Shown here: one piece after another, positions 7,801 to 44,890 of the stretch
How the letters are laid out: each line of letters begins with the position of its first letter
Numbering within the stretch: position 1 is the first letter of the stretch
From: Candidatus Cloacimonadaceae bacterium
GTDB lineage: Bacteria; Cloacimonadota; Cloacimonadia; Cloacimonadales; Cloacimonadaceae
Length of the DNA: 48,498 bases
Assembly: GCA_030693415.1 (NCBI GenBank)
Contig: JAUYAR010000152.1
Location: 1 to 48,498, forward strand
Reading direction: 5' to 3'
Position numbers and translations under genes: made by a program
Notes under the pieces: generated by a model
The model's database searches: none
What the model saw: the letters and a program-made list of their open reading frames with translations, nothing else
Told to the model about the DNA's origin: nothing

Positions 7801-8418
7801 GTGATCCGCGTCGATCTTCCCTTTGCCGGTAAATACCTCGATCAGGACAAAGACGCCCAGGCGGTTTCAAGCGTTGCTGCGGCTTTGCAAAGCGCCGTGA
7901 TCCAAGGCTGCGACGAATCCCCAAGACGTGTGCTTGAATTTGGCAGTGGTTGCGGGATCGTCAGCATCATGTTAGCGCTGCAAAGACCACTTTGGCAGAT
8001 TACCGGAATCGAGATCCAAACCCCTCTGCACAAGCTCGCTCTTCAAAACGCAGCGCGCTGCGAAGTGTCGGTCAGCTTGATCAATTCTGATATCAGAACC
8101 TTCACGGCAGATGAGAAAGCGGATTTGATCGTCTCCAATCCACCCTGGCAAAAATCCGGCAGCGGCATCCTGAGCCCCTTTGACAGTAAAAACATCAGCC
8201 GTTTCGAGATCAGGTGCACGATGGAGGAACTGCTGGAATCCGTGAAACGAAACCTTCATCCATCCGGAAGCGCGTATCTCATCTATCCCCGCGATCGCGA
8301 AAAAGACCTGCAAATAACGGCAAACAAGACTTTTCTTGACATAAATGACAGCCTTGCCGCTGCTGACCTCAAAAATCATATTATCTGCCATATCAGGCAC
8401 AAAGGAATGAATTCATGA
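7801..8418 (+). CDS. TrmN6-like N6-adenine methyltransferase
   Basis: A 205-residue class I SAM-dependent methyltransferase. The SAM loop EFGSGCG lies at 46-52, and the catalytic NPPW motif at 113-116 is of the N6-adenine/N-methylase type. The GIEIQTPLHKLALQNA segment resembles YfiC/TrmN6, which methylates A37 of tRNA1(Val), so a tRNA target is the best guess; the exact substrate is not provable. The start is GTG 7801, with no good ribosome binding site. The stop overlaps the next gene as ATGA, beginning a chain of five overlapping genes up to 12595. Confidence 0.75.
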   Translation: MIRVDLPFAGKYLDQDKDAQAVSSVAAALQSAVIQGCDESPRRVLEFGSGCGIVSIMLALQRPLWQITGIEIQTPLHKLALQNAARCEVSVSLINSDIRTFTADEKADLIVSNPPWQKSGSGILSPFDSKNISRFEIRCTMEELLESVKRNLHPSGSAYLIYPRDREKDLQITANKTFLDINDSLAAADLKNHIICHIRHKGMNS

Positions 8419-9260: not shown

Positions 9261-9798
9261 CGCGCTCACCTTGCTGCGGGTGTTGCTCATCCCGGTATTT
9301 CTGTATTACACCTTTTCTCCCCAGGGATCGATCGCGATCGCACTGATCATTTTTGCCGTCGCGTCCTTCACGGACTTTCTGGACGGATATCTGGCACGGC
9401 GGATGAAGGTGATCAGCAATTTTGGCAAGCTGATGGATCCGTTGGCGGACAAGCTTCTGGTGCTTTCAGCGTTGGCGGGGCTCACCTGGCTGCCTCCTTT
9501 CAGGCTGCATATTGCCATCTTTTGCGTCATCCTTGTGCGTGAGCTTGCCATCACAATCCTGCGTGAAATCTACAAGAAAAAAGGCATCATCGTGCCGGCG
9601 GACAAACTTGGTAAGATCAAGACCCTCATGCAGATGAGCGGAATCATCGCCGCCTATGCGCTTTGGGCATGGCATGACCCCATCCCATCAGAGCTGATAA
9701 CGATCATCGCGATCTGGTTTTGGCTGGTTGCGGGGATTACATTATCTAGCGGATTGAATTATCTCATCGGCGTCAAGCTGCCGCGGGAGGAATCATGA
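9244..9798 (+). CDS. pgsA: CDP-diacylglycerol--glycerol-3-phosphate 3-phosphatidyltransferase
   Basis: A 184-residue inner-membrane enzyme that makes phosphatidylglycerol phosphate, the committed step to PG and cardiolipin. The CDP-alcohol phosphotransferase motif is complete: D44-x2-D47-G48-x2-A51-R52-x8-G61-x3-D65-x3-D69. Several hydrophobic helices follow. The product type (PgsA rather than another CDP-alcohol transferase) rests on the RGIPNALTLLRVLLIPVF start and overall size. ATG 9244 is chosen over upstream in-frame starts because GGAGGG at 9227-9232 precedes it and longer versions run deep into the upstream gene. Confidence 0.88.
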   Translation: MRGIPNALTLLRVLLIPVFLYYTFSPQGSIAIALIIFAVASFTDFLDGYLARRMKVISNFGKLMDPLADKLLVLSALAGLTWLPPFRLHIAIFCVILVRELAITILREIYKKKGIIVPADKLGKIKTLMQMSGIIAAYALWAWHDPIPSELITIIAIWFWLVAGITLSSGLNYLIGVKLPREES

Positions 9799-10859
9799 AA
9801 TACGCCTTTTTGACAATGCTCGCCTTGCTGCTGGCTCTTTCATCCTGTGGAAGAGGCGACGGAGACAAGGGCTTTTACACAAAGTTTAATGACCTGATTG
9901 ATCACTCCAAACCCATCGCTTTCGGCGAGGATGAAGATATCTATGTCTTTTGCGGAACGCAGAACTGGGCAAGGCTCGAAACCCTCATCCGCTCTTCCGT
10001 CGAGCGCGAAGTGGCACTGGTTTACAACGAGAAGTACTTCTTCATCACCCCCGCCGATATCAAGGAGATTGATCAACTCAGCAAGTATAAAAACCTGCTT
10101 TTTATCGGCAGCTTGGAAGCCGGCGATCCGGTATCCAACCATATCCGCCAAAGTCTATCCCCGGATCTGATTGATCGGGTTAAAACCAGCGGCGGTGATC
10201 TCTTTATCACCAAAAACCGCTTCACGCGTGATCAACTCATCCTGCATCTGGTGGCAAAGGACGATGGCCGCTTGGTGGATCTCGCCAATATCCAGGCAAA
10301 CAAGATTTTCGACACCTTGCTGGATCGCTATCGCAAACGCCTTGCCTACCACGCCTATCAGATCAAAGTGATCACTGAGGATTTCTTCCAACCCTATCCT
10401 TTTTCACTGAAAATACCGGAAAACTACAGCCTCTATTCCAACGATCCGAAAAACAACTTCCTGTCCTTTATCTACCGCGCCCGCTTGCAAAACCGCGAGA
10501 TTCCGGATAAATATATCTCCGTCCATTGGGTGGAGATGGAAACCGATAAAGTGGACGAAGCCTGGCTGCTGCAAAAAAGAATCGAGATCGGGGAACGCCA
10601 TTTCGATGGTGACGTGCTCGATCCCACCAAACTGCGCACGGAGAAATTCAACTTTGCCGGCTTTGAAGGATTTCGCCTCAGCGGTCCTTGGGAAAACCGC
10701 AAACACATGATCGGCGGCGCGTTTCAGAGCTATGCTTTCTGGCATCCCCAAAGCAGGAAGGCGTATTTTGTGGACAACAGCGTCTATTTCCCCGCCGGAA
10801 ACAAGCTCCCCATCTTAGCTGAGCTGTTTATGGTATCTTCCAGCCTGAAGATTAAATGA
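9795..10859 (+). CDS. DUF4837-like lipoprotein
   Basis: 354 residues with a lipoprotein signal: hydrophobic helix 3-14, then LSSC with C18 as the lipidated cysteine. The body is a mixed alpha/beta protein without a motif I can tie to an activity. Overall form and size resemble the DUF4837 family of Bacteroidetes-type lipoproteins, from memory of its features and not from a search. It is coupled to pgsA by an ATGA overlap and to the next lipoprotein by another, implying envelope function in the same pathway or a shared housekeeping operon. Confidence 0.6.
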   Translation: MKYAFLTMLALLLALSSCGRGDGDKGFYTKFNDLIDHSKPIAFGEDEDIYVFCGTQNWARLETLIRSSVEREVALVYNEKYFFITPADIKEIDQLSKYKNLLFIGSLEAGDPVSNHIRQSLSPDLIDRVKTSGGDLFITKNRFTRDQLILHLVAKDDGRLVDLANIQANKIFDTLLDRYRKRLAYHAYQIKVITEDFFQPYPFSLKIPENYSLYSNDPKNNFLSFIYRARLQNREIPDKYISVHWVEMETDKVDEAWLLQKRIEIGERHFDGDVLDPTKLRTEKFNFAGFEGFRLSGPWENRKHMIGGAFQSYAFWHPQSRKAYFVDNSVYFPAGNKLPILAELFMVSSSLKIK

Positions 10860-12595
10860 GGACATTTTTCCTCACCGGCATCGCGATCTTCACATTGATC
10901 GTAATCTCCGCCTGTTCCGCCAATAAAACCGATTCGCGGTTGATGCCGGAAACCGGCAGTCCAAACCCATGCTTCCAATCCATCTATTACTATACGGTGG
11001 CGTCTTTATTCCATCATCGGGCGGACTTTGCGACTGCCGATCAGCTCTATAGAAAAGCGCAGGACAAAGATCAGAACAGCTATCAGATCCAAAAACAGAT
11101 ACTGCTAAATTCTGTCTATATGTTTGGCAATAAACAAATAACGCAGGAAGCCCTGCAGAGCCTGCTGGAACGCGGCAAAAAAGAGATTCTCTTTGATAAT
11201 GAACTCCTCAACGCCGCTTATTCTTTCTATAACAACGTTGCCGACACCGCCAATCTGACCTGGGCGATCAACGAATTGGAGAGCCGTTATCCCAGTGCCA
11301 GATCGATGATGATGCGCTATCTATTTGATGCCATGCACAGCGGCAGGGTGGACACCGGGCGGCTTTTTATCGCCTTGGATAGAGCGCAAAAAAGTCCCGA
11401 AGACCTGATGCTGATGGCGCAGCTATTTGGCCCAACTATACCCAATATCTCGATCCCCGCGCTTGTCCGGCTTGGCGAGATAGCTCCATCGGAAGAATCC
11501 GGTAAGATGCTGGCCGAGTTGATCCTCAGCCTTGATGACGACTCCAAGGCAAGAGCTCATTTCAACGCCTATCTCTATCCTCAGGACAAAGCATCGATGT
11601 TGTTTTTCCTCAACCAGGCTTTTGAGCTTAAGCGTTTTCGACTGATCACGTCTCTGGCTCCTTTGATCATCTCCACGCTTGATTATGAGTGCTGCTATGT
11701 GCTTGCCTACACGGCGTTTACTGAGCATATACCGGATTTGAGCGAGCAGATCGATCAAGCTTTTCGCAAAAGCGGAATCGGCAACTTTCCAGATACCTTT
11801 CTCTTTTCGCTATTGGTCACGGACGGATTGATCAGCGGCAGAGACATCCGGCATCTTCTTCCACGCCTGCAAAGCGCGAAGGATTTTGAAAACATCCTCA
11901 CCTACTATTCGATCAAAGGCAAGATATTGCTTGAGGAAGGACTTCTCAGCGGGAAAGAAAACATCTACGCAGAATTTGTCGATATTGCCATCGAAAGCCT
12001 TCCCGAATCGCCGGCGCGGGCTTTTCTTGTTCTGATGGCTCAATCGATCGCGGAAAATAAAGAGTTGCCGGCCTTGCTCGAGGCGAAACGCAATCTGGTC
12101 TTGCAGCTCTTTGCGCAAGAATACTATAACCGCGACGATATCGAATTTCTCGGCGACTATTATTTCCGCAACAAGCTTGATGACAAACGGATAGCCCTGC
12201 TCTACAAAGCCGTGGAACTCTATCCTGAGGATGCGGACTTTCTGAACGATCTCGGCTATACTTTGTTAGTTAATACAGATCACATCGCCGAAGCGGGAGA
12301 CCTGATCAACAGAGCGATCGCCATCGAAGCAGACAACCCCTTCTATCAGGATAGCATGGCTTGGTATTTATATCTGATCGGAGATTATTCCGCAGCCCGA
12401 AACCACATCAACATCGCCATCAAGCATGAGACCCTCCCCTCAGAGATATACTATCACGCCGCCATGATCCATCTGAAACTGGGAGATACCGAGAACGCCA
12501 GACTCCATTTTCAAAACGCGATCGACCAAAACAACGACGAACAATATGTGAACCTGTCCAAGGCGGAGCTAAAGAAACTCCGCGCGGTTAAATAA
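10856..12595 (+). CDS. TPR-repeat lipoprotein
   Basis: 579 residues. The signal ISAC places the lipid-modified cysteine at C20. The rest is all-helical, with clear tetratricopeptide repeats in the last 150 residues (ALLYKAVELYPEDADFLNDLGYTLL, AGDLINRAIAIEADNPFYQDSMAWYLYLIGDYSAARNHINIAI, AAMIHLKLGDTENARLHFQNAI), and probably degenerate repeats before them. It should be a periplasmic or outer-membrane-attached scaffold. It is the last gene of the overlapping run from 7801. No specific partner can be named. Confidence 0.75.
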   Translation: MRTFFLTGIAIFTLIVISACSANKTDSRLMPETGSPNPCFQSIYYYTVASLFHHRADFATADQLYRKAQDKDQNSYQIQKQILLNSVYMFGNKQITQEALQSLLERGKKEILFDNELLNAAYSFYNNVADTANLTWAINELESRYPSARSMMMRYLFDAMHSGRVDTGRLFIALDRAQKSPEDLMLMAQLFGPTIPNISIPALVRLGEIAPSEESGKMLAELILSLDDDSKARAHFNAYLYPQDKASMLFFLNQAFELKRFRLITSLAPLIISTLDYECCYVLAYTAFTEHIPDLSEQIDQAFRKSGIGNFPDTFLFSLLVTDGLISGRDIRHLLPRLQSAKDFENILTYYSIKGKILLEEGLLSGKENIYAEFVDIAIESLPESPARAFLVLMAQSIAENKELPALLEAKRNLVLQLFAQEYYNRDDIEFLGDYYFRNKLDDKRIALLYKAVELYPEDADFLNDLGYTLLVNTDHIAEAGDLINRAIAIEADNPFYQDSMAWYLYLIGDYSAARNHINIAIKHETLPSEIYYHAAMIHLKLGDTENARLHFQNAIDQNNDEQYVNLSKAELKKLRAVK

Positions 12596-12818: not shown

Positions 12819-14913
12819 CCCAACTTTACCACTCTCACCCTAAAAAATGCCCATTTTGGGCATAAATCGGCATTTTCCGAATTTGGGCAAATCGCCTAAC
12901 AGCATATATGGCACACCTATACCCGTTTATCATTTTTCCCAAAAACACCGCTAAGTCAAATGTAGTGACCATAACATTCAGATTTATCTTGACGGAAATT
13001 CAGCCCTCAACATTGTGGCTCTCATGTATATTAGAAAGATGACTAAAACAAACAAAGGCTCCGGCAAGCAATACGACGAGTATCGCTTGGTGAAGAGCTG
13101 TCGCAACGGGGACAAGGTAAGCCAGACCATCATTTTGGTCATGCAGGAGATACGTGTGCCGCAGCAGCAATGGAAAGCATTGGCTACGGCGATTGAGGCT
13201 TTGATCAACGGTCAGGAAGTGCTGTTTCGCGAGCAAGCTATCCAGGCAGAAGCAGAGCGCTGGGTCAGTGCTTATCTGTCCAAAAAGTCCAGGGATACGA
13301 TGCCGCTGGAAATCAATCCCAAAGATGATGAAGACTATGAAAGCGTCAGTATCAGCAGCATTTCGAATCGTCAGCCCAAGAGCATTGGCGCGGAGCACAT
13401 ATCCTTGAGTATATACCGCGAGCTTGGTTTTGAAGGCATCTTTCAGGAACTGGGCTTCACCGGTAAGCAAAGAAATGACGCGGCACTGTCAATATTGGGC
13501 AGAATGTTGGAGCCGGGCAGCGAGAATGCAACTGCCGGTTGGAGCAGGATTCATACAGGTTTGGGGGAGCTTCTGGGAGCAGACTTTTCCAGATTATCGC
13601 ACAATGCGCTGTACCGGATAACCGATCAGATCTATAAGCATAAAGAGCATATCGAGAGGAAATTACGTGAAAACGAATGCAGCATCTTCGACCTCAAGGA
13701 GAGCATCTTTCTTTATGATCTCACCAACACCTATCTGGAGGGCATGGCAAGGGGTATTTCCAAGGCTCGCTTTGGTTTTTCCAAGGAAAAGCGCTCCGAT
13801 TGCAGATTATTGACCTTGGGTCTCGTTTTGGATGACCTGTGTTTTCCCAAAAGAAGCCGGGTTATGGAGGGTTCCGTAAGTGAATCTGCCGCCTTGGGAA
13901 AGATGATCGAGTATCTGAGCGATGAAGACGACGGGAAAGCCGTTACCGTGGTCATCGATGCCGGGATTGCCACGGAAGCCAATCTTGCCTATCTGAGAAA
14001 AAAGAAATATCATTATGTCTGCGTTGCCCGCAACAAACCCATTCCTGAAACACAGATCGATAAGGCGGAATTCGTGCCCGTCTCCAATAAAGGCGGCAAT
14101 CAGATCCACGCTCAAGTTTTCAAGAAGGAGAATGAATGTGTCCTCTATTGTGAAAGCGAAAAGATGGGACTCAAGGAAAAGGCGATGCAGGAGAAGTTCT
14201 GTTCCCGCTTTGAAGCTGAATTGAACAAGCTCCGTGATGCCCTTGCAGCAAAGAAGGGGAAAAGGAATTTTGAATATATCCAAGACCGGGTTAGCCGGCT
14301 CAAAGAACGCTTCAAATCGGTGAGTTCTTTCTATACGATAGACATATCACGGGAAGATGACAAAGCCGGCTCTCTCCAATACGCCTGTGACCGTCAGGGA
14401 GCTCTTGACACCAAGTACTCCGGATCATACTTTCTTCGCACCAGCCACATGGATCTCAGCAGTGACAAGATCTGGTCTATCTATATGATGCTGAATACGG
14501 TGGAAAGCGCATTCAGAACCCTCAAATCAGAGCTTCATTTCAGACCCGTTTACCATCAAAAAGAATCCCGCGCGGAAGCACACCTCTTTGTCGCTGTCCT
14601 GGCATATCATGTGGTCAACGCTATTCACCACAGATTGCAGGAGCATAAGATCACAATTTCTTGGAATACCCTCCGTAAAATGATGCGCAACCATCAGTTG
14701 ATCCTGACGACCATGCAAACCAGAAAAGGTACGACAATCACTATTCTCGATACCACAGTCGCTGAAGATAACCACAAGCAAATCTATAATGCCCTCAATC
14801 TCAGCCATAATCCAATCAAAAGAAGGGTCACCAAGCACAAACACGTGTAGTAACCATAGGTTATCTAAGTGGACGTAGGACAGGTAGATACATATTGAAA
14901 TGGTAAAGTTGGG
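12819..14913 (+). mobile_element. Complete IS1634-type insertion sequence
   Basis: 2095 bp bounded by perfect 13-bp inverted repeats: CCCAACTTTACCA at 12819-12831 and TGGTAAAGTTGGG at 14901-14913. It is flanked by TTAA on both sides (12815-12818 and 14914-14917), a likely target duplication. It carries one transposase gene. A short hairpin at 12847-12863 (ATGCCCA/TGGGCAT) sits upstream of the gene and may block incoming transcription. Intact ends and reading frame suggest a recent insertion. Confidence 0.88.
13024..14850 (+). CDS. IS1634 family (IS4-like DDE) transposase
   Basis: 608 residues from ATG 13024; an in-frame GTG at 13015 is also possible, but MYIRK is the typical family start. 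The N-terminal region is followed by an RNase-H-like DDE core: first Asp in LYDLTNTYLEG, second in VVIDAGIATEANLAYLRKKKYHYVCVARNK, and the Glu in NTVESAFRTLKSELHFRPVYHQKESRAEAHLFVAVLAYHV, which is the YREK-like region. No frameshift or stop was seen, so it should be active. It lies inside well-formed inverted repeats (see 12819-14913). Confidence 0.88.
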   Translation: MYIRKMTKTNKGSGKQYDEYRLVKSCRNGDKVSQTIILVMQEIRVPQQQWKALATAIEALINGQEVLFREQAIQAEAERWVSAYLSKKSRDTMPLEINPKDDEDYESVSISSISNRQPKSIGAEHISLSIYRELGFEGIFQELGFTGKQRNDAALSILGRMLEPGSENATAGWSRIHTGLGELLGADFSRLSHNALYRITDQIYKHKEHIERKLRENECSIFDLKESIFLYDLTNTYLEGMARGISKARFGFSKEKRSDCRLLTLGLVLDDLCFPKRSRVMEGSVSESAALGKMIEYLSDEDDGKAVTVVIDAGIATEANLAYLRKKKYHYVCVARNKPIPETQIDKAEFVPVSNKGGNQIHAQVFKKENECVLYCESEKMGLKEKAMQEKFCSRFEAELNKLRDALAAKKGKRNFEYIQDRVSRLKERFKSVSSFYTIDISREDDKAGSLQYACDRQGALDTKYSGSYFLRTSHMDLSSDKIWSIYMMLNTVESAFRTLKSELHFRPVYHQKESRAEAHLFVAVLAYHVVNAIHHRLQEHKITISWNTLRKMMRNHQLILTTMQTRKGTTITILDTTVAEDNHKQIYNALNLSHNPIKRRVTKHKHV

Positions 14914-14950: not shown

Positions 14951-16010
14951 TCACATCCCCCCGTTTTTCATGCAGGGGATTTCCAGTTGCATATAATCCC
15001 TCCTCACGCCCTTGAATTTATCAACATTGTACCTTGAAACATGGGCAAAGCAAAGCGATACTATACCGGAAAGTTTATAGTAAACAAAGCCATATATCTT
15101 CTTCCATTTTTTTTTGGAGTAGTTCATGTAATGCGGAAAAGCCATCATGATTTGTTCTGCAATACGTTTCAACGAATAGAGATAGCTCATTGCCAAGAGC
15201 AGGACTTGATTCATGTTTTTGAGCCTCAGATATGATGTTAATTGAATGTCTTCCCACCCGTATTCTTGCTTGATATGCTTATGCACCTCTTCAATCTTCC
15301 ATCTCAAACGGTACATCCTGATTACCTTTTCCATGATCTGATCATCTGATAAATGTGGCAGGACTGGAAAATTGCAGAAGAAATAGAAATATCCTTGCTT
15401 GCCATGCTTGTTGGGGCTGAATTTGGCAACAACCAAATAGAGCTCAACGGTCTCGGGATGCTTTTTGGGATGAGAATCCAGTCTAAGTTTAACACGCTTG
15501 AGTCCGCACATGATCTGTTGTCCGTTTTCTTTTACTTCGATTCTTGTGGTCAAACTTACAGATTTGGCCACCTCTTTGAAAGGACGCTCTTTATCGCCAA
15601 CAATAATGTTTCTGATGCCCATGCTCCTGACAATAAAATTCATGTCATGGAGTCCGAGAAATCCAAACAATCCCCTCTCATCATACCCTCGATCAAATAG
15701 ATAAACACCTTTATTGCCGGAAGCTATCGTTATTTCAATCAGGCGATCCTCGAGAATCTGGGATACGCCATCCAATTCGGTATCACGTGCGATCAAATCA
15801 CTGCTTAGCGGCTTAATCTGATACCCATCTCCATCTTTATCGTAGGCTATAATGTTTAAAAGATCATATCCTAACTTGTTGTTTTTCCCGGAGCTGCCAT
15901 CCCTTACGAATTGGATGCCTTCCATTTTTGTGGCGCTTGATTTGACGATATCGCTCTCATCCACAATTATGCCGGTGTCCATATCAAATCCGCGGCATTC
16001 TTTGTTTATT
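14951..16010 (-). pseudogene. IS4-like transposase, 5'-truncated
   Basis: Readable as about 350 residues of an IS4-type DDE transposase. It has a first Asp in GIIVDESDI, a second in YLFDRGYDERG, and the catalytic Glu region YRLRWKIEEVHKHIKQEYGWEDIQLTSYLRLKNMNQVLLLAMSYLY. The family normally has 100 or more residues before the first Asp; here only a few transposase-like codons precede it, before the sequence changes into unrelated DNA near 16010-16030. The open frame continues to 16096, but that stretch overlaps the start of the opposite-strand gene and does not look like transposase. No start signal or inverted repeats were found, so I call it a remnant. The exact junction is uncertain. Confidence 0.7.
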
Positions 16011-16030
16011 ATGGAGGCTTGAGAATTATC

Positions 16031-16978
16031 ATGGGCATCATACTCACAGTGTGTATTTGTGTAGTTGCTGGCATATCCACATTGAAACCAACACATGATA
16101 AAATCGACATATGGATATCGCGATCAGAATATGGGAAACTGGATACTTTTCTATCAAGTCAGGCATTCAGCACTAAACAGGCATCCTCCAACGATCTCTC
16201 CTACTATTGTCTCATAGAAACGCTTGAAACAAACTTCTCTATGTTTGAAAAGCATGGTCTGGCATTTCTATCGTCAGCGGTACAGGAAGAATCGTTGAGA
16301 TTTAGAGTTCTTGATATTTATACGAAGAACGCTGTTAATAATCCTAAATATGCATTTTCGCTATTGTCAAATTATAAACATTTCCCGGCTGGATCGAATA
16401 AGCCTGTGTCAGCAACCTTAGCTTCTTACTCACCCGGTTTTGTAGATAGCCTATTTGTCTGTTTGTTTAAGTCAAAGGGGATTACGATAAATACTCCAGC
16501 CTCGCTAATTATTTCCACTGTGATTCCATATATGAGGTTAGCTCTCGAGGAATATCCCAAGGTAAAAAAAATAATTGAATATACAAAAACGCTTGATGAG
16601 TTTATTGAATTGAAGAAAGGATTTGACAAAGGACTGACAGCGCTCATTGCCTTTAAGGAAAATGTTGAAAAAGCGCTTAATTATAGCGATTATAGTGGTT
16701 TAGATGAAGAGCAGCTTAATCAAATGATTGAACTTACTGAGTATTTATATAAGCTCAATACCCTGTTTGGTAGCGGTAATAACGAATTTCATCCCGGCCA
16801 ACTGAGGGAATACTACAGTATTGAAGACTATAGCTCATTAGAAACCGAATCCGACCAGCTTAATCGGATGATAAAGGCGGCGGACAATTCTATAAACGAA
16901 TGTACAAAAGGAAACAAAATAGTGCACGACAAAAGCGCGATAGTTAAGAGTGACTTAATAAATCTGCTTAATGATTAG
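16031..16978 (+). CDS. Hypothetical protein with N-terminal signal/anchor, AT-rich
   Basis: 315 residues that I do not recognise. A hydrophobic start (IILTVCICVVAGIS) suggests a signal peptide or single anchor; the rest is mostly helical, with a charged C-terminal third (EKALNYSDYSGLDEEQLNQMIELTEYLYKL). Base and codon use are visibly more AT-rich than the housekeeping genes on either side. It sits directly against a transposase remnant, which points to transfer or rearrangement. ATG 16031 is preferred to TTG 16019; GGAGG at 16013-16017 is slightly far from the ATG but too close to the TTG. It may itself be truncated at the 5' end. Confidence 0.5.
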   Translation: MGIILTVCICVVAGISTLKPTHDKIDIWISRSEYGKLDTFLSSQAFSTKQASSNDLSYYCLIETLETNFSMFEKHGLAFLSSAVQEESLRFRVLDIYTKNAVNNPKYAFSLLSNYKHFPAGSNKPVSATLASYSPGFVDSLFVCLFKSKGITINTPASLIISTVIPYMRLALEEYPKVKKIIEYTKTLDEFIELKKGFDKGLTALIAFKENVEKALNYSDYSGLDEEQLNQMIELTEYLYKLNTLFGSGNNEFHPGQLREYYSIEDYSSLETESDQLNRMIKAADNSINECTKGNKIVHDKSAIVKSDLINLLND

Positions 16979-34271: not shown

Positions 34272-36725
34272 ATGACATCTGGTAAGAATGAGATACATGA
34301 GCAATTGAGAAAAGCCTTCATCAGGATTGGTGAATTTGAGAGAGAAAACGCACAACTAAAGAACAAACTCATCACGCACGAGAAAGAGAATGCAACTCAT
34401 GACGCACAAACATCGTATCTGACGGGAGAAAATGGCATTAACCAACCTAAAAATGAATTGAGTATCCCTGATTCACCGGCATCGGTCAATAGCTCTTCAA
34501 CTCCGGAAAAGAAAGTTACTTTGTTCAAAAACCTGTTTCGCGGCAGAGAAGACGTGTTTGCTATGCGGTGGACAGGCAAGGACAACAAATCAGGATACTC
34601 TCCAGCCTGTATCAATGACTGGAAACTTGGGGTCTGTGGGAAATACAAGAAAATTGCTTGCGCCAATTGCGAAAATAGAAAGATGATTCCGCTGGAAATA
34701 AGGCAGCTATACCGACATCTGAAGGGCGAGATTGTGATAGGAGTTTATCCCTTGCTGGACGATGATACCTGTTTCTTCCTCGCCTTTGACTTCGATAAAA
34801 AGGAGTGGAGGGAAGACGTGCTTGCTCTGATGGAAACTTGCTCAGTTTATACAATACCGGCTTACGTCGAAAAGTCCCGATCGGGCAATGGAGCACACGT
34901 TTGGGTATTCTTTGAAGATGCCGTGGCAGCATCGTCTGCAAGGAAGTTTGGCACTGCACTCTTGACCGCGACAATGGAACGGAGGCATCAAATCGGACTT
35001 GATTCCTATGACAGGATTTTCCCAAATCAAGATACAATGCCCAAGGGAGGATTTGGAAACCTCATCGCGCTGCCTTTACAGAAACAAGCCAGAGAACATG
35101 GGAACAGCATGTTTGTTGACGAGAGTTTGAAGCCGCTTGAAGATCAGTGGAAGCACTTGGCTCATATTGAGAAGCTCACTCAACAGAGATTGAGTGACTT
35201 ACTTAAAGCGTTATCTGCGAATCACAGTCCGATCGGCAAACTTGTAGCATCAACCGAGGAAGAGCTGCCTCCCTGGGAGAAAGCACCCCCTGATAGAGAT
35301 GGTTACGGCGTTTTACCATCACAGGTAAAGATTGTTTTCAGCAACATGGTCTATATCGAAAAAGAATCATTGCCGCCAAAGCTATTGAATCGGATCATCA
35401 GACTCGCGGCTTTTCAGAATCCGGAGTTTTATCGGGCTCAGGCGATGAGGATGCCGATCTACAATATCCCCAGAATCATTAGTTTATCCAGCGAAAGCGA
35501 TAAATACTTGGCTGTCCCCAGAGGCTGCAAAGAAGATTTGACCAAGCTGTTCGACCAATTACATATCGAACCATTGATCAAAGATCAAAGAAATGCCGGC
35601 ACAAAACTTGAGGTTCATTTCATGGGCAAGCTAAGCCCGGAGCAAGTGTTGGCAGGTAAAACGCTACTCGAACACGAGAGTGGAATACTCTCTGCCACCA
35701 CCGCCTTTGGCAAGACAGTTGTAGCAATCTGGATGATTGCTCAGAGGCAGACAAGTACTCTGATTGTAGTTCATAGACGCCAATTGATGCAGCAGTGGAT
35801 AGAGAGATTGAAGTGTTTCCTTGCAGATGCTGAAGTAGGCGAGATTGGAGGGGGCAAGGAAAAGAGAACAATGAAGATAGACGTAGCGATCATCCAAAGC
35901 CTTTATCATGAGCGCAAAGTGAAGGAATACGTTCAGGACTATGGCATGGTGATTGTAGATGAATGTCACCATATTTCTGCCTTCAGCTTTGAGCAAGTTC
36001 TCAAGGAAGCCCAAGCAAAATATGTGTATGGTTTTACAGCCACCCCGATCCGCAAAGACGGTCAGCATCCGATAGTTACGATGCAATGCGGTCCTATCCG
36101 CTATAGGGTTGATTCGAAATCTCAGCTTGCATTCAGAGCCTTTAGCCATAAAGTGATAGTGCGTTATACAAACTTCAAAATGCCAGATCATCTGATCAGC
36201 GCAGACCCCAAGATCACGGACATCTATCAGGCATTGGTTGATGACCGCGCAAGAAATGATCTGATCCTTGACGACATCATCACTGCCATTGTTGCCCGCA
36301 GAAGTCCATTAATTCTTACTGAACGCACCGCTCATGTTGAATTCTTTGCCGAGAAACTTGCGGGGTTTTCGAAGCATGTCATCTCGCTGAGAGGAGGTAT
36401 GGGCAGAAAACAGCTCATGGTAGTGATGGATAAGATTCACTCCATTCCGGACTGTGAGGAAAGGGTGATCATTGCGACAGGTAAATACATTGGAGAGGGT
36501 TTTGATGACAGCAGGCTGGATACGCTGTTTCTGACAATGCCCATATCCTGGAAAGGAACCCTGCAGCAGTATGCCGGACGGCTACACAGAACTCACGACA
36601 ATAAAACCGAAGTCATAATCTACGATTACGTTGATCGGGAGGAGCCGGTGTTAGCTGCTATGTATAGAAAGAGGATAAAGGGTTATGCGGGGATGGGGTA
36701 TAAAATAACCGAGGACTGTAACTAA
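34272..36725 (+). CDS. TOTE-type archaeo-eukaryotic primase fused to SF2 helicase
   Basis: 817 residues. A short coiled coil (10-40) is followed by a four-cysteine zinc-finger-like motif (C113, C122, C130, C133). An AEP primase core follows, with D173/D175 in LAFDFD, H209 in SGNGAHVW and an acidic motif at FPNQD (250-254). From about 450 comes an SF2 helicase: Walker A TTAFGKT (476-482), DECH (563-566), FTATP, and motif VI QYAGRLHR. This architecture is that of the primase-helicases in TOTE conflict systems, a predicted class of anti-mobile-element systems; the name is from family knowledge, not a search. It converges on sbcC with a 4-bp overlap of the gene ends. No separate nuclease or effector gene adjoins it in the same direction. 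Confidence 0.8.
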   Translation: MTSGKNEIHEQLRKAFIRIGEFERENAQLKNKLITHEKENATHDAQTSYLTGENGINQPKNELSIPDSPASVNSSSTPEKKVTLFKNLFRGREDVFAMRWTGKDNKSGYSPACINDWKLGVCGKYKKIACANCENRKMIPLEIRQLYRHLKGEIVIGVYPLLDDDTCFFLAFDFDKKEWREDVLALMETCSVYTIPAYVEKSRSGNGAHVWVFFEDAVAASSARKFGTALLTATMERRHQIGLDSYDRIFPNQDTMPKGGFGNLIALPLQKQAREHGNSMFVDESLKPLEDQWKHLAHIEKLTQQRLSDLLKALSANHSPIGKLVASTEEELPPWEKAPPDRDGYGVLPSQVKIVFSNMVYIEKESLPPKLLNRIIRLAAFQNPEFYRAQAMRMPIYNIPRIISLSSESDKYLAVPRGCKEDLTKLFDQLHIEPLIKDQRNAGTKLEVHFMGKLSPEQVLAGKTLLEHESGILSATTAFGKTVVAIWMIAQRQTSTLIVVHRRQLMQQWIERLKCFLADAEVGEIGGGKEKRTMKIDVAIIQSLYHERKVKEYVQDYGMVIVDECHHISAFSFEQVLKEAQAKYVYGFTATPIRKDGQHPIVTMQCGPIRYRVDSKSQLAFRAFSHKVIVRYTNFKMPDHLISADPKITDIYQALVDDRARNDLILDDIITAIVARRSPLILTERTAHVEFFAEKLAGFSKHVISLRGGMGRKQLMVVMDKIHSIPDCEERVIIATGKYIGEGFDDSRLDTLFLTMPISWKGTLQQYAGRLHRTHDNKTEVIIYDYVDREEPVLAAMYRKRIKGYAGMGYKITEDCN

Positions 36726-39700
36726 TTAGCATCAGCTATGGCTCTGCACCCAATTCCCTTGAGCTGGCTGACTCCGCCAGCTTGCGGGATTACCTGAATC
36801 TGGTTTGTGATCCTGTCCTTGATGGCGGCAACGTGTGAGATGATACCGATCAACTTTCCCTCGTTGTTTAAAGCGGCAAGGTTTTCCATGGCGATTTCCA
36901 GGCTGTCTTCATCCAGGGAACCAAAGCCTTCATCAAGAAAGAGGGAATCGATGCTCACGTTTTTGCTGGACATTTTTGACAGCCCCAAAGCAAGCGCCAG
37001 ACTGACGATGAAACTTTCTCCGCCCGAGAGATTTTTCACTGTGCGGATCTCGCCAGCCTGGTAATCGTCTATGATATACAGGTCCAAAGGGGCATTGTCG
37101 CTATTGATCAGCAGATAGCGGTCGGAAAGCTTCTGCAACTGGACATTGGCGTGGGCGATCAGCAACTCGAAGGTGATCCCTTGGGCAAAAGTGCGGTATT
37201 TTTTTCCGTCCGCGGAACCTATGAGTTCATACATCTTTTCCCAGCGGTTTAGAACCTCATTATGAGTATTGATCTTCCGGATTTGTTCTACGTGCGTCCT
37301 TAGCTGTTTGGAGTTTTCGTTGAGCTTTGTTTCCAGAGCACCACGCTCCCTGTTAGCACTGTCTATTCTGGACTGGCAATCGTTTGCTTCGTTCTGCAAT
37401 TCTGTCCATTCTATTTCGGAAAGCTTTTTCCCCTGTTCCGCTTTTAACATAATGGAGTTTTCGGAGATCTGAGCGTTAATCCTTTTCTGTTTTGAAGTTA
37501 GCGACTCCTCTCTCTGCTGAAGCTCGTTAAGGTTGTCTTGGTCGATGAGACATGCCAGGAATTCTTCGATCCCGGTAAAGCCATTCTTTTGCAGACCCTT
37601 GAGAAAGCTTTCTTCTGCCTTTTGCAGTGCTGGAGACAGCTTAGCGATCAGTTTGGCTGATTTCCGCGCTTGCTCTTCGTTGGAATGAATCAGCGTGGCT
37701 TTTTGTTCGCTTAACAATTCCGATTCCCTTAGATCTGTCCTCAAATTCATCAGTTCCTTCTGCCAGTCCGTTTCAACCTCCTCAACGCTGGTATTTCCGA
37801 GCAGCCGGTATCTGTTCTCCGTATTGTCCTTCAATTCCTTTTCCATCCGCTTTTGGCTTGCCTTGATAGTATCGATCTCCTGTTGCTGGCTGTTCGACAA
37901 TTGCTTTTTGCCATTTAATACTGCCCTCAGTTTTTGGATCCCGGTCTGGAGGCTTTTTGCCCGGGAAATGCTTTGCTCCCAGGTATTTTTTTTGGTTTCC
38001 AAAATGGGGATGAGCAGTTGTGGATCATACTGTCCGTCCAGTACCAACCCGAATGGCGTTAACTCCTCCGTGAGTTTCTTACGCTGGGTAAATTCGCTGT
38101 CATGTAGCTCCTTGAGTGTGGTGGAGCATTGGACAAATTGTTCCTTGATCGACTGAAACTCTAGCTCGGTTTTCCTGCGTTTCTCTTTCTGCGCGTCCAG
38201 TTGCGTCTGTAACTCAAGTTTCTTTTTCTGTAGTTCACCCTGTTTGGTATGCAGTCTTTCAGCCTGTTTGATCAACGATTCCAGGGTTTCAATATACTTG
38301 CTATTCTGTTCTTGTAATTCTTCCAGAATAGCATCCGATACATCCACGATTCCCAATTGCGCGCTTTTTTCCGCCAGATACTTGCCCATAGATTCCACGT
38401 TGCTTTCCTTCTGGGATTGCTGATTCAGCTTATGCCTGGCCGCGGTCTCACCATGCAGTTTTTCCAGTTTCCTGATCTTTGACTCGATGGATTTCAATCC
38501 GACTTGAGCCTGCTCCAGGGCCGTTTCCTGTAGGTCTGTATCCGGTAATTCCGCTGTGGCAAAGGGATGCACGGTTGAACCGCAGAGGGGACAGGGTGTG
38601 TTTTCCTGCAGCTTTATGCGTTCATCGTTAAGGTCCAGTATCTTGTTGGTGTGCCTCAGCTTCTCCATACTATCCTGCACCATTGCATCAGCTGTCTCTT
38701 TGTCTTTGTTTAATCCCTGAAGTTCAGCTTCAAGCTGGGCTAAGCTTATCTTGTCCTTGGAAATCGCGGCTTCTGTCTGTTCGTGTTTGACCTGCGCTTT
38801 CCCGTGGCTTTCATAGCTGGCGCGTAGCGCGCCCAGAGCCGTTGCCCTCCGGTTCGCCGCCTGCAGCAGCGACCTGTATTCCGCCAGGGTATTTGCGGAT
38901 AGGAGTTCGGTAAGCCCTTTGCCCGCCGAATCAAGTGCTATATTCAGCTTACGCAGTTCCTCTTCAACGGATCCGATCTGCTCTTGTATCTTGTTCAATT
39001 CCGCCTGTTTGACGGTCGTACCGGCTTTTTGACACTTTTCCCGATACTTAATAATATCCTTCTGAATTGTCCGCAGCTGTTCAAATTGGTTTACCAGGGC
39101 TTTGAGCGAGGACATCAATTCAGCATCCTCGGGGTGTTCAGTGAGATATTTTTCTGCTCTATCTTGTTCCTTTTCCATGTCCATGATTTCCTGCTCGAGT
39201 TGAGCCATCTCTTTTCCGAGTTCATTAAGCTTTTTGATTCTGGATTTGAGATCCGCTTTCTGCACTGCGACGCTCTTTTTCTGTACTTTAATCCCGCTAT
39301 CCAACTGGCGGATATTGTTGAACAGCTTTTGCTTGTCCGGATTCTGCGCTTCCGCTTGTTTGAGACTTACTTGCCGTTTCTCCAATTCGGGTTTTAACTT
39401 TGTCTGTTCAGCTATCAGATTGGTTTCCTTTTCCTGAAGTTCAGTCTGTTCCTTTATTACTTCCTGCAAGCGGTACCGCCAGGATTCGATTTCCTGTAAA
39501 TCCGGTCTCAAAGGTAGCGCCCGGCGCGCTTTATCTAGCTTTTCACGATCCGGTGCGAATATATGGATCTCTTTCTCAACATCTTTCAGGCGGTTTTCTT
39601 GTGTCCTAATCTCACTTTTCAGGCGCTCGATGTTTTCCGCCCATTTTAGCTTGGCGGCGATCTCTATTTGGCTTTCTTTCATTTTTTTTTCTGCCTGCTT

Positions 39701-40384
39701 GGACTGCGTCAGACTGTCCTGCAGTTCCACGCATTCTTCGCTGCTGAGCAGTTGTATGGACCCCAAGGCGGCAAGCAGTTCTTTGTGCTCGTTCTGCAGT
39801 GCGTTTTTCCGATTATACACTTCTATGGATATTTCGCTGTAGATATCGGTTCCCGTGATCTCTTCCAGGATTGAAGAACGTTCGTTGACATCTGCCTTCA
39901 GAAAGGCGTCAAAACCTCCTTGTGCCAGCAGCATGGACCGCGTGAAACGAGTAAAATCCATGCCGGTGACCTCTTCGACCTTGGCCTTCACTTGGGTGGT
40001 TTTTTCCTCCAGCAGCTTGCCAGTTCCTACGTCTGAGATATCGTGCTTGGGCTGTTGTAGTTCGCCGCCAGGTTTGTTGCGTGCGCGTTTCTGGCTCCAA
40101 TAACACCGGAAACTGCCTTTATTGGTGTTAAATTCCACTTCAGCAAAACAGTCTCCGGTCCGGCGGGACATCAGTTCGTTCGTGCCCTTGCTGATCCTGC
40201 TCAAGCGCGGAGTTTCGCCATACAAGGCCAAACAGATAGCGTCCAGGATGGTTGATTTCCCGGCTCCTGTGGGTCCGGTGATGGCAAATATCCCGCTTTC
40301 GGTGAAAACCTTGTGGGAAAAGTCGATTTCCCATTCCCCTGCCAGCGAATTCAGATTCTTAAATCTCAGTTTTTGGATCCTCAT
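36722..40384 (-). CDS. sbcC: Exonuclease subunit SbcC (Rad50-like ATPase)
   Basis: A 1220-residue SMC-type ATPase. Walker A is GPTGAGKST (37-45). About 900 residues of coiled coil carry a central zinc hook CPLC at C598/C601. The C-terminal half has the signature NLSGGESFIVSLALALGLS and Walker B DSLFLDEGFGSLDED. With SbcD it opens and cuts hairpins and protein-blocked DNA ends, and limits long palindromes. ATG 40384 is 8 bp after sbcD. In this window, dense in long palindromes, its substrate is abundant. Confidence 0.93.
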   Translation of the reverse strand: MRIQKLRFKNLNSLAGEWEIDFSHKVFTESGIFAITGPTGAGKSTILDAICLALYGETPRLSRISKGTNELMSRRTGDCFAEVEFNTNKGSFRCYWSQKRARNKPGGELQQPKHDISDVGTGKLLEEKTTQVKAKVEEVTGMDFTRFTRSMLLAQGGFDAFLKADVNERSSILEEITGTDIYSEISIEVYNRKNALQNEHKELLAALGSIQLLSSEECVELQDSLTQSKQAEKKMKESQIEIAAKLKWAENIERLKSEIRTQENRLKDVEKEIHIFAPDREKLDKARRALPLRPDLQEIESWRYRLQEVIKEQTELQEKETNLIAEQTKLKPELEKRQVSLKQAEAQNPDKQKLFNNIRQLDSGIKVQKKSVAVQKADLKSRIKKLNELGKEMAQLEQEIMDMEKEQDRAEKYLTEHPEDAELMSSLKALVNQFEQLRTIQKDIIKYREKCQKAGTTVKQAELNKIQEQIGSVEEELRKLNIALDSAGKGLTELLSANTLAEYRSLLQAANRRATALGALRASYESHGKAQVKHEQTEAAISKDKISLAQLEAELQGLNKDKETADAMVQDSMEKLRHTNKILDLNDERIKLQENTPCPLCGSTVHPFATAELPDTDLQETALEQAQVGLKSIESKIRKLEKLHGETAARHKLNQQSQKESNVESMGKYLAEKSAQLGIVDVSDAILEELQEQNSKYIETLESLIKQAERLHTKQGELQKKKLELQTQLDAQKEKRRKTELEFQSIKEQFVQCSTTLKELHDSEFTQRKKLTEELTPFGLVLDGQYDPQLLIPILETKKNTWEQSISRAKSLQTGIQKLRAVLNGKKQLSNSQQQEIDTIKASQKRMEKELKDNTENRYRLLGNTSVEEVETDWQKELMNLRTDLRESELLSEQKATLIHSNEEQARKSAKLIAKLSPALQKAEESFLKGLQKNGFTGIEEFLACLIDQDNLNELQQREESLTSKQKRINAQISENSIMLKAEQGKKLSEIEWTELQNEANDCQSRIDSANRERGALETKLNENSKQLRTHVEQIRKINTHNEVLNRWEKMYELIGSADGKKYRTFAQGITFELLIAHANVQLQKLSDRYLLINSDNAPLDLYIIDDYQAGEIRTVKNLSGGESFIVSLALALGLSKMSSKNVSIDSLFLDEGFGSLDEDSLEIAMENLAALNNEGKLIGIISHVAAIKDRITNQIQVIPQAGGVSQLKGIGCRAIADAN

Positions 40385-40392
40385 TTCTTACC

Positions 40393-41610
40393 TCACTCCG
40401 CGTTTGCGTCCCTATCCGCCAGACTTTGCAGGACCTCGTTGTAGCAGGCACAAAGCTCCTTCGCGAGGGGCGCTTCGATCTTGTGCCGTTCCAGACATCG
40501 TTTGAAGACCTCCTGGGGATCGAGGTCATCCAAGGTTTCCTCCAGTTTTTGCCGGGACAAAGCTTTCTGTGTGATGCGCTCGTTTCTGAGCCGCAACAGT
40601 TCGATGTCACTGTCTTCGATCAGGTCCAATACGTCCTGTTTCAGGTCAGACCGCAGGTCAAAACCCGTGTAGTTTATATCCAACCAGCAGGGAAGCGATT
40701 CCGTGAGCAGGGATTCCAGCACCCTGTTGATCTCGTCCCAATCACCATCGATCTGGACAAGCTTGACGGTTTGCGGTACTTTCACTGCTTTAATGGTCGC
40801 TTTTGCGCCTTTGATATCGACTATGAGCACCTGTTTATCAGACTCAGCCTCTTTGAAGGAAAGGGGGATCGGCGACCCGGAATAGCGGCAATTCGCCCGC
40901 TTGCCCACGCTTTGCTGCCTGTGTAGATGCCCCAATGCGATATAGCTCAACTCCTTGGGGAAAACGCTGTCCGCAACCTGTGCCAGATTGCCGATATACA
41001 GGTCCCGCACCGCTTCGCCATCACTCAAACTAGCCCCTTTAGCGAAAAGATGCCCCATCGCGATCACCGGTAGTTTTTGGGCGAGCGAAAAAGAGTGCGT
41101 GAACACGTCCTGATAGTGTTTTTTAATCCCAGCGATCAGCTTTTCCTCTTTGTTCGCGATCGATTCGCCGCTTTCCACAAAACGCAGATCCCGCTCCCTG
41201 AGAAAGGGAACAGCGCAGACAAACAACTGGGCTTTGCCTGCATCATCTTTAAGAAGCAAAACCTCGTCTTCCGCAGAATCCGTCATGCATCCGACAACGT
41301 GGATATTGAGATATTTCAGCAATTCGCCGGGAGCGTTGAGCAAAGTTGGGGAATCGTGGTTTCCGCCGATGATGACGACATGGCGGCAATCCGTGAGATT
41401 AACCAGATGGAGGAAATTATAATAGAGTTCCTGAGCCCTATTGCTAGGCGAGGAGGAATCGAAAACGTCGCCGCTGACCAGCAAAATGTCGATCCTTTCA
41501 TCCCGGACCAGTTCGATCAGCCACTCCAGAAAGGTCAGCTGTTCTTCGTATCGTTTCCTGCCAAAGAGGCTGCATCCCAGATGCCAGTCCGACGTATGCA
41601 ATAATCTCAT
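40393..41610 (-). CDS. sbcD: Exonuclease subunit SbcD (Mre11-like nuclease)
   Basis: A 405-residue metallophosphoesterase nuclease. The manganese-binding motifs are HTSDWHLG at the N-terminus, VSGDVFDSSSPS, GGNHDSP, AMGHLF and ALGHLHRQQ. It is the nuclease partner of SbcC and lies immediately upstream in the same transcript. The C-terminal capping region is helical and ordinary. Confidence 0.93.
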   Translation of the reverse strand: MRLLHTSDWHLGCSLFGRKRYEEQLTFLEWLIELVRDERIDILLVSGDVFDSSSPSNRAQELYYNFLHLVNLTDCRHVVIIGGNHDSPTLLNAPGELLKYLNIHVVGCMTDSAEDEVLLLKDDAGKAQLFVCAVPFLRERDLRFVESGESIANKEEKLIAGIKKHYQDVFTHSFSLAQKLPVIAMGHLFAKGASLSDGEAVRDLYIGNLAQVADSVFPKELSYIALGHLHRQQSVGKRANCRYSGSPIPLSFKEAESDKQVLIVDIKGAKATIKAVKVPQTVKLVQIDGDWDEINRVLESLLTESLPCWLDINYTGFDLRSDLKQDVLDLIEDSDIELLRLRNERITQKALSRQKLEETLDDLDPQEVFKRCLERHKIEAPLAKELCACYNEVLQSLADRDANAE

Positions 41611-41707: not shown

Positions 41708-42844
41708 TTAATCCAAATCTATTGTCTGCTGAGCATCATTTGCATTTTTAACTTTGTATTTGTTTGCCCGGCCAATTTTTATCTGCTCCACGGTGTCTGT
41801 CTTTTTTAATAATTTGGTCATTCGCATAGAGGTCCAGCCGCAATTGAGCTTATCGCAGATTTCTTTCGCTGTGAGAGCCTTGTCAGTAATCAAGTAGAGA
41901 ATCCTATCGAGGATATCCTCATTTGACGCATTATCGGGTGATACGTTCTCAGCAGTCGATTGATCTGCCAATAGCTCACCATAGAAATCTACTTCCCTGG
42001 CGCCCATAGAAATCAGCAGATCATTGGCATTTGCTTCACCTTCCTCCGGTTTGCGGACATAGATTATCCGTCCCTTACGAAGTCCGTCCCTCACTCCCGA
42101 CCAGGTTCCACCGGAATTGAACGAGTCAGCCACATAAATGTGCTTTGCCAGGCCATAGATGATGGGATTCCGTGCCATTGCCAGTTCCACTTTCCAAGGC
42201 GCCTTGGGGTGAAATGTGCTGAGAACCAGCACATTTCCCTCAATGATCTGTTTATAGTAGGTCTTATAGCCTGATCCAAAGGTCAGCACACCCTGGGGAA
42301 GCACAATGATGCTATGACCATTATACTTTAGTGTGGAATCCAGAGCGGCTTTATCGATACCCTTGGCAAATCCGCTGACGACCACCTGATAGTTATCAGT
42401 GCCTCTTTTGGCAACGTTATCAGTAAATTGCATACCTTGTGCACTTGCGTTTCGTGATCCCACAATGGCTATGGAATCCTCCTTCAGTAGTTGTTTGTTT
42501 CCTTTTATATATAGTACCGGTGGCGAATACGCGAGTTTCAGGTTCTCCTTTAAAGTGGGTGAATAATCCGGATCATTGAGCGGGATGAGCTCGAAGCCTT
42601 GATTTAGAAGACTCTCCGCAAGAAATGCATTGTTGGCTATCTGCTCTTTAGCCTCTAACAGCGAGGCGCAGTAATGTTCTTCCAGTGAATACACGCTCTT
42701 CCAGACCTCCGTTTCGAGAGCAAAGAACGCCTCCAAATCTGAGTTATTGTCAAAATAGATGGCTTTAATCAGGGCATTAATTCGGCCATTCGTCCAGCGC
42801 TGAAGATGAGCAATCGTGATCCAGTAAGCGGCATGATTTATCAT
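41708..42844 (-). CDS. DprA-like DNA-processing protein
   Basis: 378 residues. An N-terminal helical region is followed by the DprA/Smf Rossmann (SLOG) domain at about 85-300: IAIVGSRNAS (125-134), VVVSGFAKGID (154-164), HSIIVLPQGV, FHPKAPWKVELAMARNPIIYGLA and SGGTWSG (244-250). A winged helix closes the protein (about 310-370, DKALTAKEICDKLNCGWTSMRMTKLLKK). Classical DprA loads RecA on incoming single strands; SLOG relatives also occur in defence systems as partners of phosphoribosyltransferases. It lies 30 bp after the RecQ-ComFC gene. FHPKAPW in place of the usual EYPPG..P segment marks it as a divergent DprA. Confidence 0.8.
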   Translation of the reverse strand: MINHAAYWITIAHLQRWTNGRINALIKAIYFDNNSDLEAFFALETEVWKSVYSLEEHYCASLLEAKEQIANNAFLAESLLNQGFELIPLNDPDYSPTLKENLKLAYSPPVLYIKGNKQLLKEDSIAIVGSRNASAQGMQFTDNVAKRGTDNYQVVVSGFAKGIDKAALDSTLKYNGHSIIVLPQGVLTFGSGYKTYYKQIIEGNVLVLSTFHPKAPWKVELAMARNPIIYGLAKHIYVADSFNSGGTWSGVRDGLRKGRIIYVRKPEEGEANANDLLISMGAREVDFYGELLADQSTAENVSPDNASNEDILDRILYLITDKALTAKEICDKLNCGWTSMRMTKLLKKTDTVEQIKIGRANKYKVKNANDAQQTIDLD

Positions 42845-42874
42845 CTATCATCCTTTGTTTGAGTAATTATCATC

Positions 42875-44890
42875 TTATAATCTATCCCCACCCACAGTTT
42901 TTGCCAATACTAACGGAGCAATCATCGCAGCACCGCAGTTGGTCAAGTATTTCCCCACTTCCTTGATCGTGGCGCCGCTGTCAAAGATATCGTCAATCAG
43001 CAGGACATACCGGCCACTGACAATGTCGGGATTGCTCAGCATAAAAGCGCCTGACACATTTTCGGCTTTGAGGGCGAAATTTTCATAAGCCTTCTGTTCG
43101 TGAGTATGCCTGATCTTGGTGAGATCATGGGAGATCGGAACTTTTAGGGTAAATGAAACTTTCTCCGCCAGGTGGCGGACAAGATCGCCTGAAATAGAGG
43201 GCGGAATGTACAGTATCAAATCAATTCTGTCTTTCCCGAATCTTTTAGAATACGCTTTGAGCAGCAGGGAGATCAGAAAGTCCGGGAAATCACCGCCCTG
43301 CTCATACTTGCTGCGATGAATGGCGGAGCCGACATTGGAAACCCCGTAATAGGACGCTGCTATCCCATTGATCAGATTGCTGCCTTTAGTCTCGACCTCG
43401 AGTTCCGGAAAGTAGCTTTCACGGAATCGCTCCAGCTTGGTAGACCACTCCGGAGTATGCGTGATCCTGTGTTTGGGTAGCCCGGTGTTATCGCAATTCG
43501 CAAAGTTCCTTCCGTCGCTATCACCGAGGTAATTGCACAGATATGACATCCGGGATTGGGTGGATTCGGCATAATCCATCATGGCTTCCAATTCCTTCAT
43601 TTTCGCTGCTCTCAGCTCTTCAAACTGGCTGGGATCAAAGGGTTTGGCATTGCGGACATACTCATATCGCTTGGTTTTGCCGATGAACACTTCCCTGATA
43701 ATTCCCTGATCCATCAGATCAGCACGGATGACTCTGATTTGGGTTTGGCGGAGATTGGTCTTTTTCATCAGTTCCCGCTCCCCCAGCATCTCGCTTTGCA
43801 AGGCTGCGATCACTTGTTCGTATTTTGCGGTTGCAGGTTTCGCGCCCTCGATGAAAGCTTCAGGCAGATCTCGATCAGATGGATTGTATAAAAGAATGAT
43901 CACCGTGGGTAATCCATCTCTACCCGCACGGCCAATCTCCTGATAATAATGCACTGGAGATTGGGGAAATTGGGTATGGATGATAAATCTGAGATCAGGT
44001 TTATCAATTCCCATACCTAAAGCATTGGTCGAGATCACACATTTCCAGGTGTTGTTGATCATCCCTTGTTCCACCTCGATCCTGGATTCAGTGTCTAACC
44101 TGCTGTTGTATGATCTGCATGGAATATTAAGATACTCAAACCACTTACTGACGACTTCTGTTTCAACTACGGTTCCGGAATATATTATACCTGTCCCGGT
44201 TAGCTTGTTTATATTCTGTCCGAGCCAGATCAGCTTGTCATCATCTGAGGCAACATCGATAACATACAATTTGAAATTATCTCGCACCAGATTACCGCGG
44301 ATCACTTTCAGGTCGCCAGAGATTTGTGAAGCTACATCTCGTTCAACCCTCTTGGTGGCAGTTGCAGTGGTAGCCAATACCGGCAGTCCCTTTGGGAGGA
44401 GATTGACCAGATTGATGATCCTTCTGTAGGCGGGACGAAAGTCGTGACCCCATACCGAGATACAATGCGCTTCATCCACGACTACCATGGCAAGCTTCAT
44501 GTTTCGCACTTCTTCCAGCCATAGGGAGTTTTCCTGGCGTTCCGGAGCTATATAGAGGATACTCAAGGAGCCCTGTTTCGCCTCGGCAATGACCGCCAGA
44601 TTTTCTTCAACGGTTTGATTGCTATTGATGCACTTTGCGGCGATTCCCAATGCTTGAAGTTTTGACACTTGATCACGCATCAGTGCGATAAGAGGAGAAA
44701 AGACGACCGTCAGACCAGCAAACTGCACAGCCGGAAACTGGAAACACAGAGATTTCCCATATCCGGTCCGTTCGATCAACAGAACCCTTTCCCCCCTCAG
44801 AATACGGGAGATGGCTATCCATTGCTCATCGTAGAAGTGATCCAACCCAAAGCGAGATTTGAGAATCTTCTCGGCTTGATCTCTATCCAT
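42875..44890 (-). CDS. RecQ-like helicase fused to a ComFC-type phosphoribosyltransferase
   Basis: 671 residues. The RecQ helicase core (1-335) has Walker A RTGYGKS (41-47), DEAH (139-142), the aromatic loop CISVWGHDFRPAY and motif VI QEIGRAGRDG (317-326). The zinc subdomain region keeps the exact C-x16-C-x2-C-x2-C spacing but reads S446, F463, C466, T469, so three of four ligands are gone. After a short linker, residues about 500-671 form a PRTase of ComFC type: LTKIRHTHEQKAYENFALKAENVSGAF, then the PRPP loop DDIFDSGAT (633-641). The HRDC domain of full-length RecQ is replaced by the PRTase. ATG 44890 has AGGGG 11 bp before it. It leads a minus-strand run with the DprA-like gene. Confidence 0.85.
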   Translation of the reverse strand: MDRDQAEKILKSRFGLDHFYDEQWIAISRILRGERVLLIERTGYGKSLCFQFPAVQFAGLTVVFSPLIALMRDQVSKLQALGIAAKCINSNQTVEENLAVIAEAKQGSLSILYIAPERQENSLWLEEVRNMKLAMVVVDEAHCISVWGHDFRPAYRRIINLVNLLPKGLPVLATTATATKRVERDVASQISGDLKVIRGNLVRDNFKLYVIDVASDDDKLIWLGQNINKLTGTGIIYSGTVVETEVVSKWFEYLNIPCRSYNSRLDTESRIEVEQGMINNTWKCVISTNALGMGIDKPDLRFIIHTQFPQSPVHYYQEIGRAGRDGLPTVIILLYNPSDRDLPEAFIEGAKPATAKYEQVIAALQSEMLGERELMKKTNLRQTQIRVIRADLMDQGIIREVFIGKTKRYEYVRNAKPFDPSQFEELRAAKMKELEAMMDYAESTQSRMSYLCNYLGDSDGRNFANCDNTGLPKHRITHTPEWSTKLERFRESYFPELEVETKGSNLINGIAASYYGVSNVGSAIHRSKYEQGGDFPDFLISLLLKAYSKRFGKDRIDLILYIPPSISGDLVRHLAEKVSFTLKVPISHDLTKIRHTHEQKAYENFALKAENVSGAFMLSNPDIVSGRYVLLIDDIFDSGATIKEVGKYLTNCGAAMIAPLVLAKTVGGDRL

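Follow-up and report, generated by a model that had tools for sequence, protein, structure and literature searches.

PsyrTA of Pseudomonas syringae is a validated toxin-antitoxin family (Sberro et al. 2013, as cited in PMC4670107 and PMC8790059) in which, by the account given in PMC4670107, PsyrT is toxic without PsyrA. The E. coli pair, from strain F11, was named RqlH-RqlI by Russell and Mulvey 2015 (PMC4670107). The two genes form an operon and their products physically interact; the PRTase domain of RqlH is genotoxic unless RqlI is present to relieve the toxicity, and mutation of the PRPP pocket (DIVD663), which is needed for toxicity, abolishes most effects. The same study reports RqlH without RqlI in many bacteria, including nearly all Gram-positives that carry RqlH. 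For RqlH of Mycobacterium smegmatis, both 3'-5' translocase activity and unwinding have been reported (Ordonez et al. 2012, as cited in PMC5512222). DprA and PRTase proteins also make up the anti-phage system ShosTA, and Rousset et al. group ShosTA, PsyrTA (printed 'syrTA') and RqlHI as systems whose antitoxins are DprA homologues (PMC9122126). One E. coli PsyrTA gave no detectable phage protection in either its native host or K-12 (PMC12409345).

Identity and architecture of the pair

We analysed a stretch of 48,498 nucleotides from a Candidatus Cloacimonadaceae bacterium (hereafter the window), on the minus strand of which psyrT is followed, after a spacing of 30 bp in the ORF coordinates, by psyrA (Table 1). 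Against the PADLOC-DB profiles, the psyrT product matches PsyrT with 832 bits (E 9e-251; residues 3-669 of 671 on profile positions 5-688 of 689) and the psyrA product matches PsyrA with 244 bits (E 8e-73; residues 5-365 of 378 on positions 8-396 of 398). The RecQ-type helicase core and C-terminal PRTase thus span the full PsyrT profile, and the DprA-like PsyrA gene lies immediately 3' of psyrT. Because both matches are full length, the pair is the already named PsyrTA/RqlHI, and the window holds an ordinary copy of this described system in a new host. Taking identity and mode of working together, we consider it very probable that these genes make up a PsyrTA (RqlHI) operon of the toxin-antitoxin type.

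Table 1. Features of the PsyrTA locus and its neighbours in the window.
Feature	Position	Strand	Description and evidence
psyrT (rqlH)	42875..44890	-	671 aa; PADLOC PsyrT, Pfam, AlphaFold2 model, Foldseek
PsyrT, RecQ-type SF2 helicase	residues ~1-340		Pfam, AlphaFold2/Foldseek
PsyrT, Walker A region ERTGYGKSL	residues 41-49; 44744..44770	-	T42, G43, G45, K46 and S47 invariant in 20 relatives
PsyrT, helical/winged-helix-like and degenerate zinc segment	residues ~354-468		Pfam, AlphaFold2/Foldseek
PsyrT, degenerate RecQ zinc segment	residues 446-469; 43484..43555	-	Aligned to homologues from E. coli and Acinetobacter
PsyrT, C-terminal ComF-like PRTase	residues ~510-665		Pfam, AlphaFold2/Foldseek
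PsyrT, PRPP-binding loop DDIFDSGAT	residues 633-641; 42968..42994	-	Alignment of relatives
psyrA (rqlI), putative antitoxin/regulator	41708..42844	-	378 aa, DprA-like SLOG; PADLOC PsyrA, PF02481
sbcD, sbcC (exonuclease subunits SbcD, SbcC)	36722-41610	-	Directly 3' of psyrA
817-aa protein	34272-36725	+	TOTE conflict-system archaeo-eukaryotic primase domain (PF22548, 1.9e-100) fused to SF2 helicase
DDE_Tnp_1 transposase gene	13015-14850	+	Domain match
DDE_Tnp_1 transposase gene	14951-16096	-	Domain match

The domain content of PsyrT is evident from Pfam matches to DEAD (9.5e-26), Helicase_C (7.8e-18), RecQ_Zn_bind (5e-6) and, across residues 574-662, Pribosyltran (1.7e-7), with no HRDC domain among them. 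Against the models of the ComF family the matches are weak, and that to TIGR00201 (3.9e-7) falls under its cut-off. An AlphaFold2 model built from 20 aligned relatives (mean pLDDT 88, pTM 0.84) has the RecQ catalytic core 4tmu as its best PDB match in Foldseek (E 4e-33), and a PDB sequence search with the PRTase part, using an approximate query with a few wrong leading residues, returned no significant match. PsyrT is nevertheless not a canonical RecQ: it scores 352 bits against TIGR01389, for which the cut-off is 640, it has no HRDC match and it has lost zinc ligands. The E. coli homologue has four cysteines in the zinc segment, whereas three of the four are lost in the window clade. The window protein keeps C466 and has S446, F463 and T469 at the other positions; C452, which lacks an E. 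coli counterpart, is invariant within the clade together with C466.

In the PRPP loop, D633, D634, S638 and T641 are invariant among the aligned relatives and D637 is nearly so, and the T..Q motif (T596..Q599) is also kept. The acids of the PRPP pocket are intact, reading DIFD at residues 634-637 where E. coli RqlH has DIVD. Since the Walker A, DEAH and PRPP-loop acid positions are all invariant or nearly so among relatives, PsyrT has probably retained both helicase and PRTase activities. PsyrA contains the DprA core (PF02481, 8.8e-39) and scores 104 bits against TIGR00732, the model for true DprA, under its curated cut-off of 191, so that it is correctly labelled divergent DprA-like; its C-terminal stretch, to which no model matched, reads as a winged helix. 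An initial annotation of the window, made from the letters alone, had described a RecQ core with a ComFC-type PRTase (TxxQ and DDIFDSGAT motifs) and no HRDC end, followed 30 bp downstream by a divergent DprA-like SLOG gene, and the domain matches, motif alignment and coordinates agree with it on every one of these points.

Gene order and domains are the same in the window and in P. syringae PsyrTA, with full-length profile matches; sequence divergence is the sole difference, the toxicity of the window protein being putative. The E. coli RqlHI pair likewise has a RecQ-PRTase toxin 5' of a DprA-like antitoxin, with the pocket acids kept in both. The window proteins share 32% (PsyrT) and 25% (PsyrA) identity with homologues encoded on an E. 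coli plasmid, and the window PsyrA (378 aa) is shorter than RqlI of F11 (400 aa) or the plasmid copy (462 aa). M. smegmatis RqlH, as described in PMC5512222, belongs to the same clade of RecQ-like helicases as the window PsyrT and likewise has a PRTase domain; unlike nearly all RqlH-bearing Gram-positives, the window has an RqlI-type partner (PMC4670107).

Conservation and spread

Full-length or near-full-length PsyrT is patchily distributed among the 98 relatives examined, and at E 1e-120 it occurs in 14 of 125 Cloacimonadota genomes. Where it does occur, the pairing holds. In all 15 Cloacimonadota loci whose downstream side could be read (genomes G002, G003, G034, G035, G038, G040, G041, G055, G058, G065, G068, G070, G083 and G086, and the window) psyrA lies directly 3' of psyrT, the pair being more divergent in G002, G058, G065 and G068. 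The same is true of 29 of the 30 assessable loci from a wider genome-wide collection; these loci are mainly from Bacteroidota and include records titled Fibrobacter/Fibrobacteria, Ignavibacteriae and Dehalococcoidia. The two genes mostly overlap by 1-4 bp or are separated by a gap of at most 30 bp. This pairing is conserved far above chance and occurs without a competence operon, thereby withstanding the test set by the initial annotation, which would have abandoned a two-gene system had the genes been rarely adjacent or confined to competence operons.

The sole exception (L055, ~7965-11182) has a full-length PsyrT and no PsyrA; the gene behind it looks like an aromatic biosynthesis gene of the DAHP synthase/chorismate mutase type. 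Such orphans, together with those described for RqlH, imply that PsyrT alone is not always toxic. The nearest named relatives, at 81% over the N-terminal half (L060) and 62% (L039), are contigs of Candidatus Cloacimonadota and come from two genomes of the window's own family (G003 and G039 in the kinship table), which places the window in this phylum. Few full-length relatives were found on plasmids, where 8 of 58 records cover at least 80% of PsyrT, and no record in the phage search covers 80%.

One locus departs from this layout in another way: in G065 (L035, ~3293-7874) the frame encoding PsyrT extends to 1,022 aa, owing to an extra N-terminal stretch of ~330 aa matching part of PsyrA, with a full PsyrA also present downstream. 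This could be a toxin-antitoxin fusion or duplication, or an open frame read 5' of the start.

Proposed mechanism

By analogy, we infer that the window copy behaves like the E. coli pair. PsyrA would bind PsyrT and keep it inactive, as seen for the E. coli proteins (PMC4670107), while the helicase part would most likely load PsyrT onto DNA. Were PsyrA lost, inactivated or diverted, with single-stranded or invading DNA as one plausible trigger, the PRTase would be freed to use PRPP to alter nucleotides or DNA, its presumed substrates. The outcome would be DNA damage, SOS and growth arrest, and the arrest might serve defence of the abortive-infection type.

Genomic context and a possible role in defence

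Homologous pairs occur inside recognised defence clusters in several distant branches. In E. coli (L073 and L079) the pair is nested in a type I restriction operon, flanked by the specificity subunit gene hsdS and the restriction subunit gene hsdR, once on a plasmid and once in a chromosomal island adjoining an integrase; among 5,426 complete genomes of this species, 53 have a near-identical allele, which is nearly always chromosomal. An Acinetobacter plasmid carries the pair within a BREX cluster, with pglX on one side and pglZ on the other, and in the Cloacimonadota genome G002 (L033, ~4277-12382) a divergent PsyrT-PsyrA-like pair is found directly 3' of BREX pglZ and brxL. In the second protein of L033 the PsyrA match is limited to the N-terminal half (residues 1-210) and the C-terminal part matches PDC-M45B and PDC-M19A, two models of candidate defence proteins, so this antitoxin may be a hybrid.

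Nesting in type I restriction and two BREX clusters favours defence and constitutes good circumstantial evidence for such a role in the E. coli, Acinetobacter and G002 branches. The initial annotation had proposed scoring nearness to known defence genes, and on this the picture is divided: distant relatives are embedded in restriction and BREX clusters, but in the window's own branch the neighbours of PsyrTA are mostly housekeeping genes. Scattered matches to BrxL, PglZ, DpdE, DpdF, AbiEii and ZorD among 81 flanking proteins are descriptive only and are not read as enrichment. Taken alone, an anti-phage purpose of PsyrTA seems to us slightly the better bet; the nesting in distant phyla lends it useful circumstantial support which is not decisive.

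Alternative explanations

The initial annotation had suggested a two-gene, toxin-antitoxin-like unit and a helicase-armed version of ShosTA. Its assignment of a PRTase effector, a DprA-like control protein and kinship to ShosTA is upheld in outline, but the system is not a new candidate. Both systems combine a PRTase toxin with a DprA-like antitoxin, and the ShosT and ShosA models do match the window proteins at a low level; however, ShosT (a 237-position model) has no helicase, and the scores of 20 bits for ShosT and 108 bits for ShosA are far below those of the full-length PsyrT and PsyrA matches. The helicase-PRTase fusion is moreover the defining trait of known PsyrTA. On these grounds we reject membership of ShosTA, which is a cousin of the window pair and not its match, and we give next to no credence to a new, helicase-armed type of anti-phage system. 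The main value of the result is a correct identification: with nothing but the sequence, the initial annotation arrived at a system that was already known.

Competence, the main alternative in that annotation, is not supported. The ComFC-like and DprA-like parts might process incoming DNA during natural transformation, a possibility discussed by Russell and Mulvey (PMC4670107) and consistent with the kinship of the domains to ComFC and DprA. The host genome, however, has separate DprA, ComF and ComEC genes, all on other contigs, so the pair is not its competence DprA/ComFC. Scanning the neighbours of related PsyrTA loci turned up no competence operon, some relatives sit in restriction and BREX operons, and the pair is patchily present. 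We therefore reject a DNA-uptake unit, on genome content and neighbourhood, as most improbable. The helicase pair might also cooperate with the SbcCD nuclease as part of a DNA-repair operon of the chromosome, psyrT-psyrA-sbcD-sbcC. Such an operon is suggested by the start of sbcD 97 bp past psyrA on the same strand, with sbcC next, and would accord with the DNA-directed beneficial role proposed by Russell and Mulvey. The linkage is not conserved, however: SbcC and SbcD matches were absent near PsyrTA in all related loci scanned, only 8 of the 50 genomes of the family have a close SbcD homologue, and in G040, the one other genome among these with PsyrTA, SbcD is on a different contig. SbcCD, unlinked in related loci and patchy in the family, is thus treated as a local neighbour and rejected as a third PsyrTA component, and we regard the repair operon as very unlikely. 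A related idea, that the Cloacimonadota/Bacteroidota branch has shifted from toxin-antitoxin or defence functions towards DNA maintenance, perhaps with SbcCD in the window strain, draws on the reduced zinc site and the mainly non-defence neighbourhoods of that branch; we consider it very unlikely. A PsyrTA operon of the toxin-antitoxin type accordingly remains our preferred reading.

Other genes in the window

The 817-aa primase-helicase gene and sbcC are convergent and their ends overlap by 4 bp; the primase-helicase may represent a further gene for conflict or repair in the vicinity of PsyrTA. Elsewhere in the window, the two DDE_Tnp_1 genes face each other and mark mobile elements.
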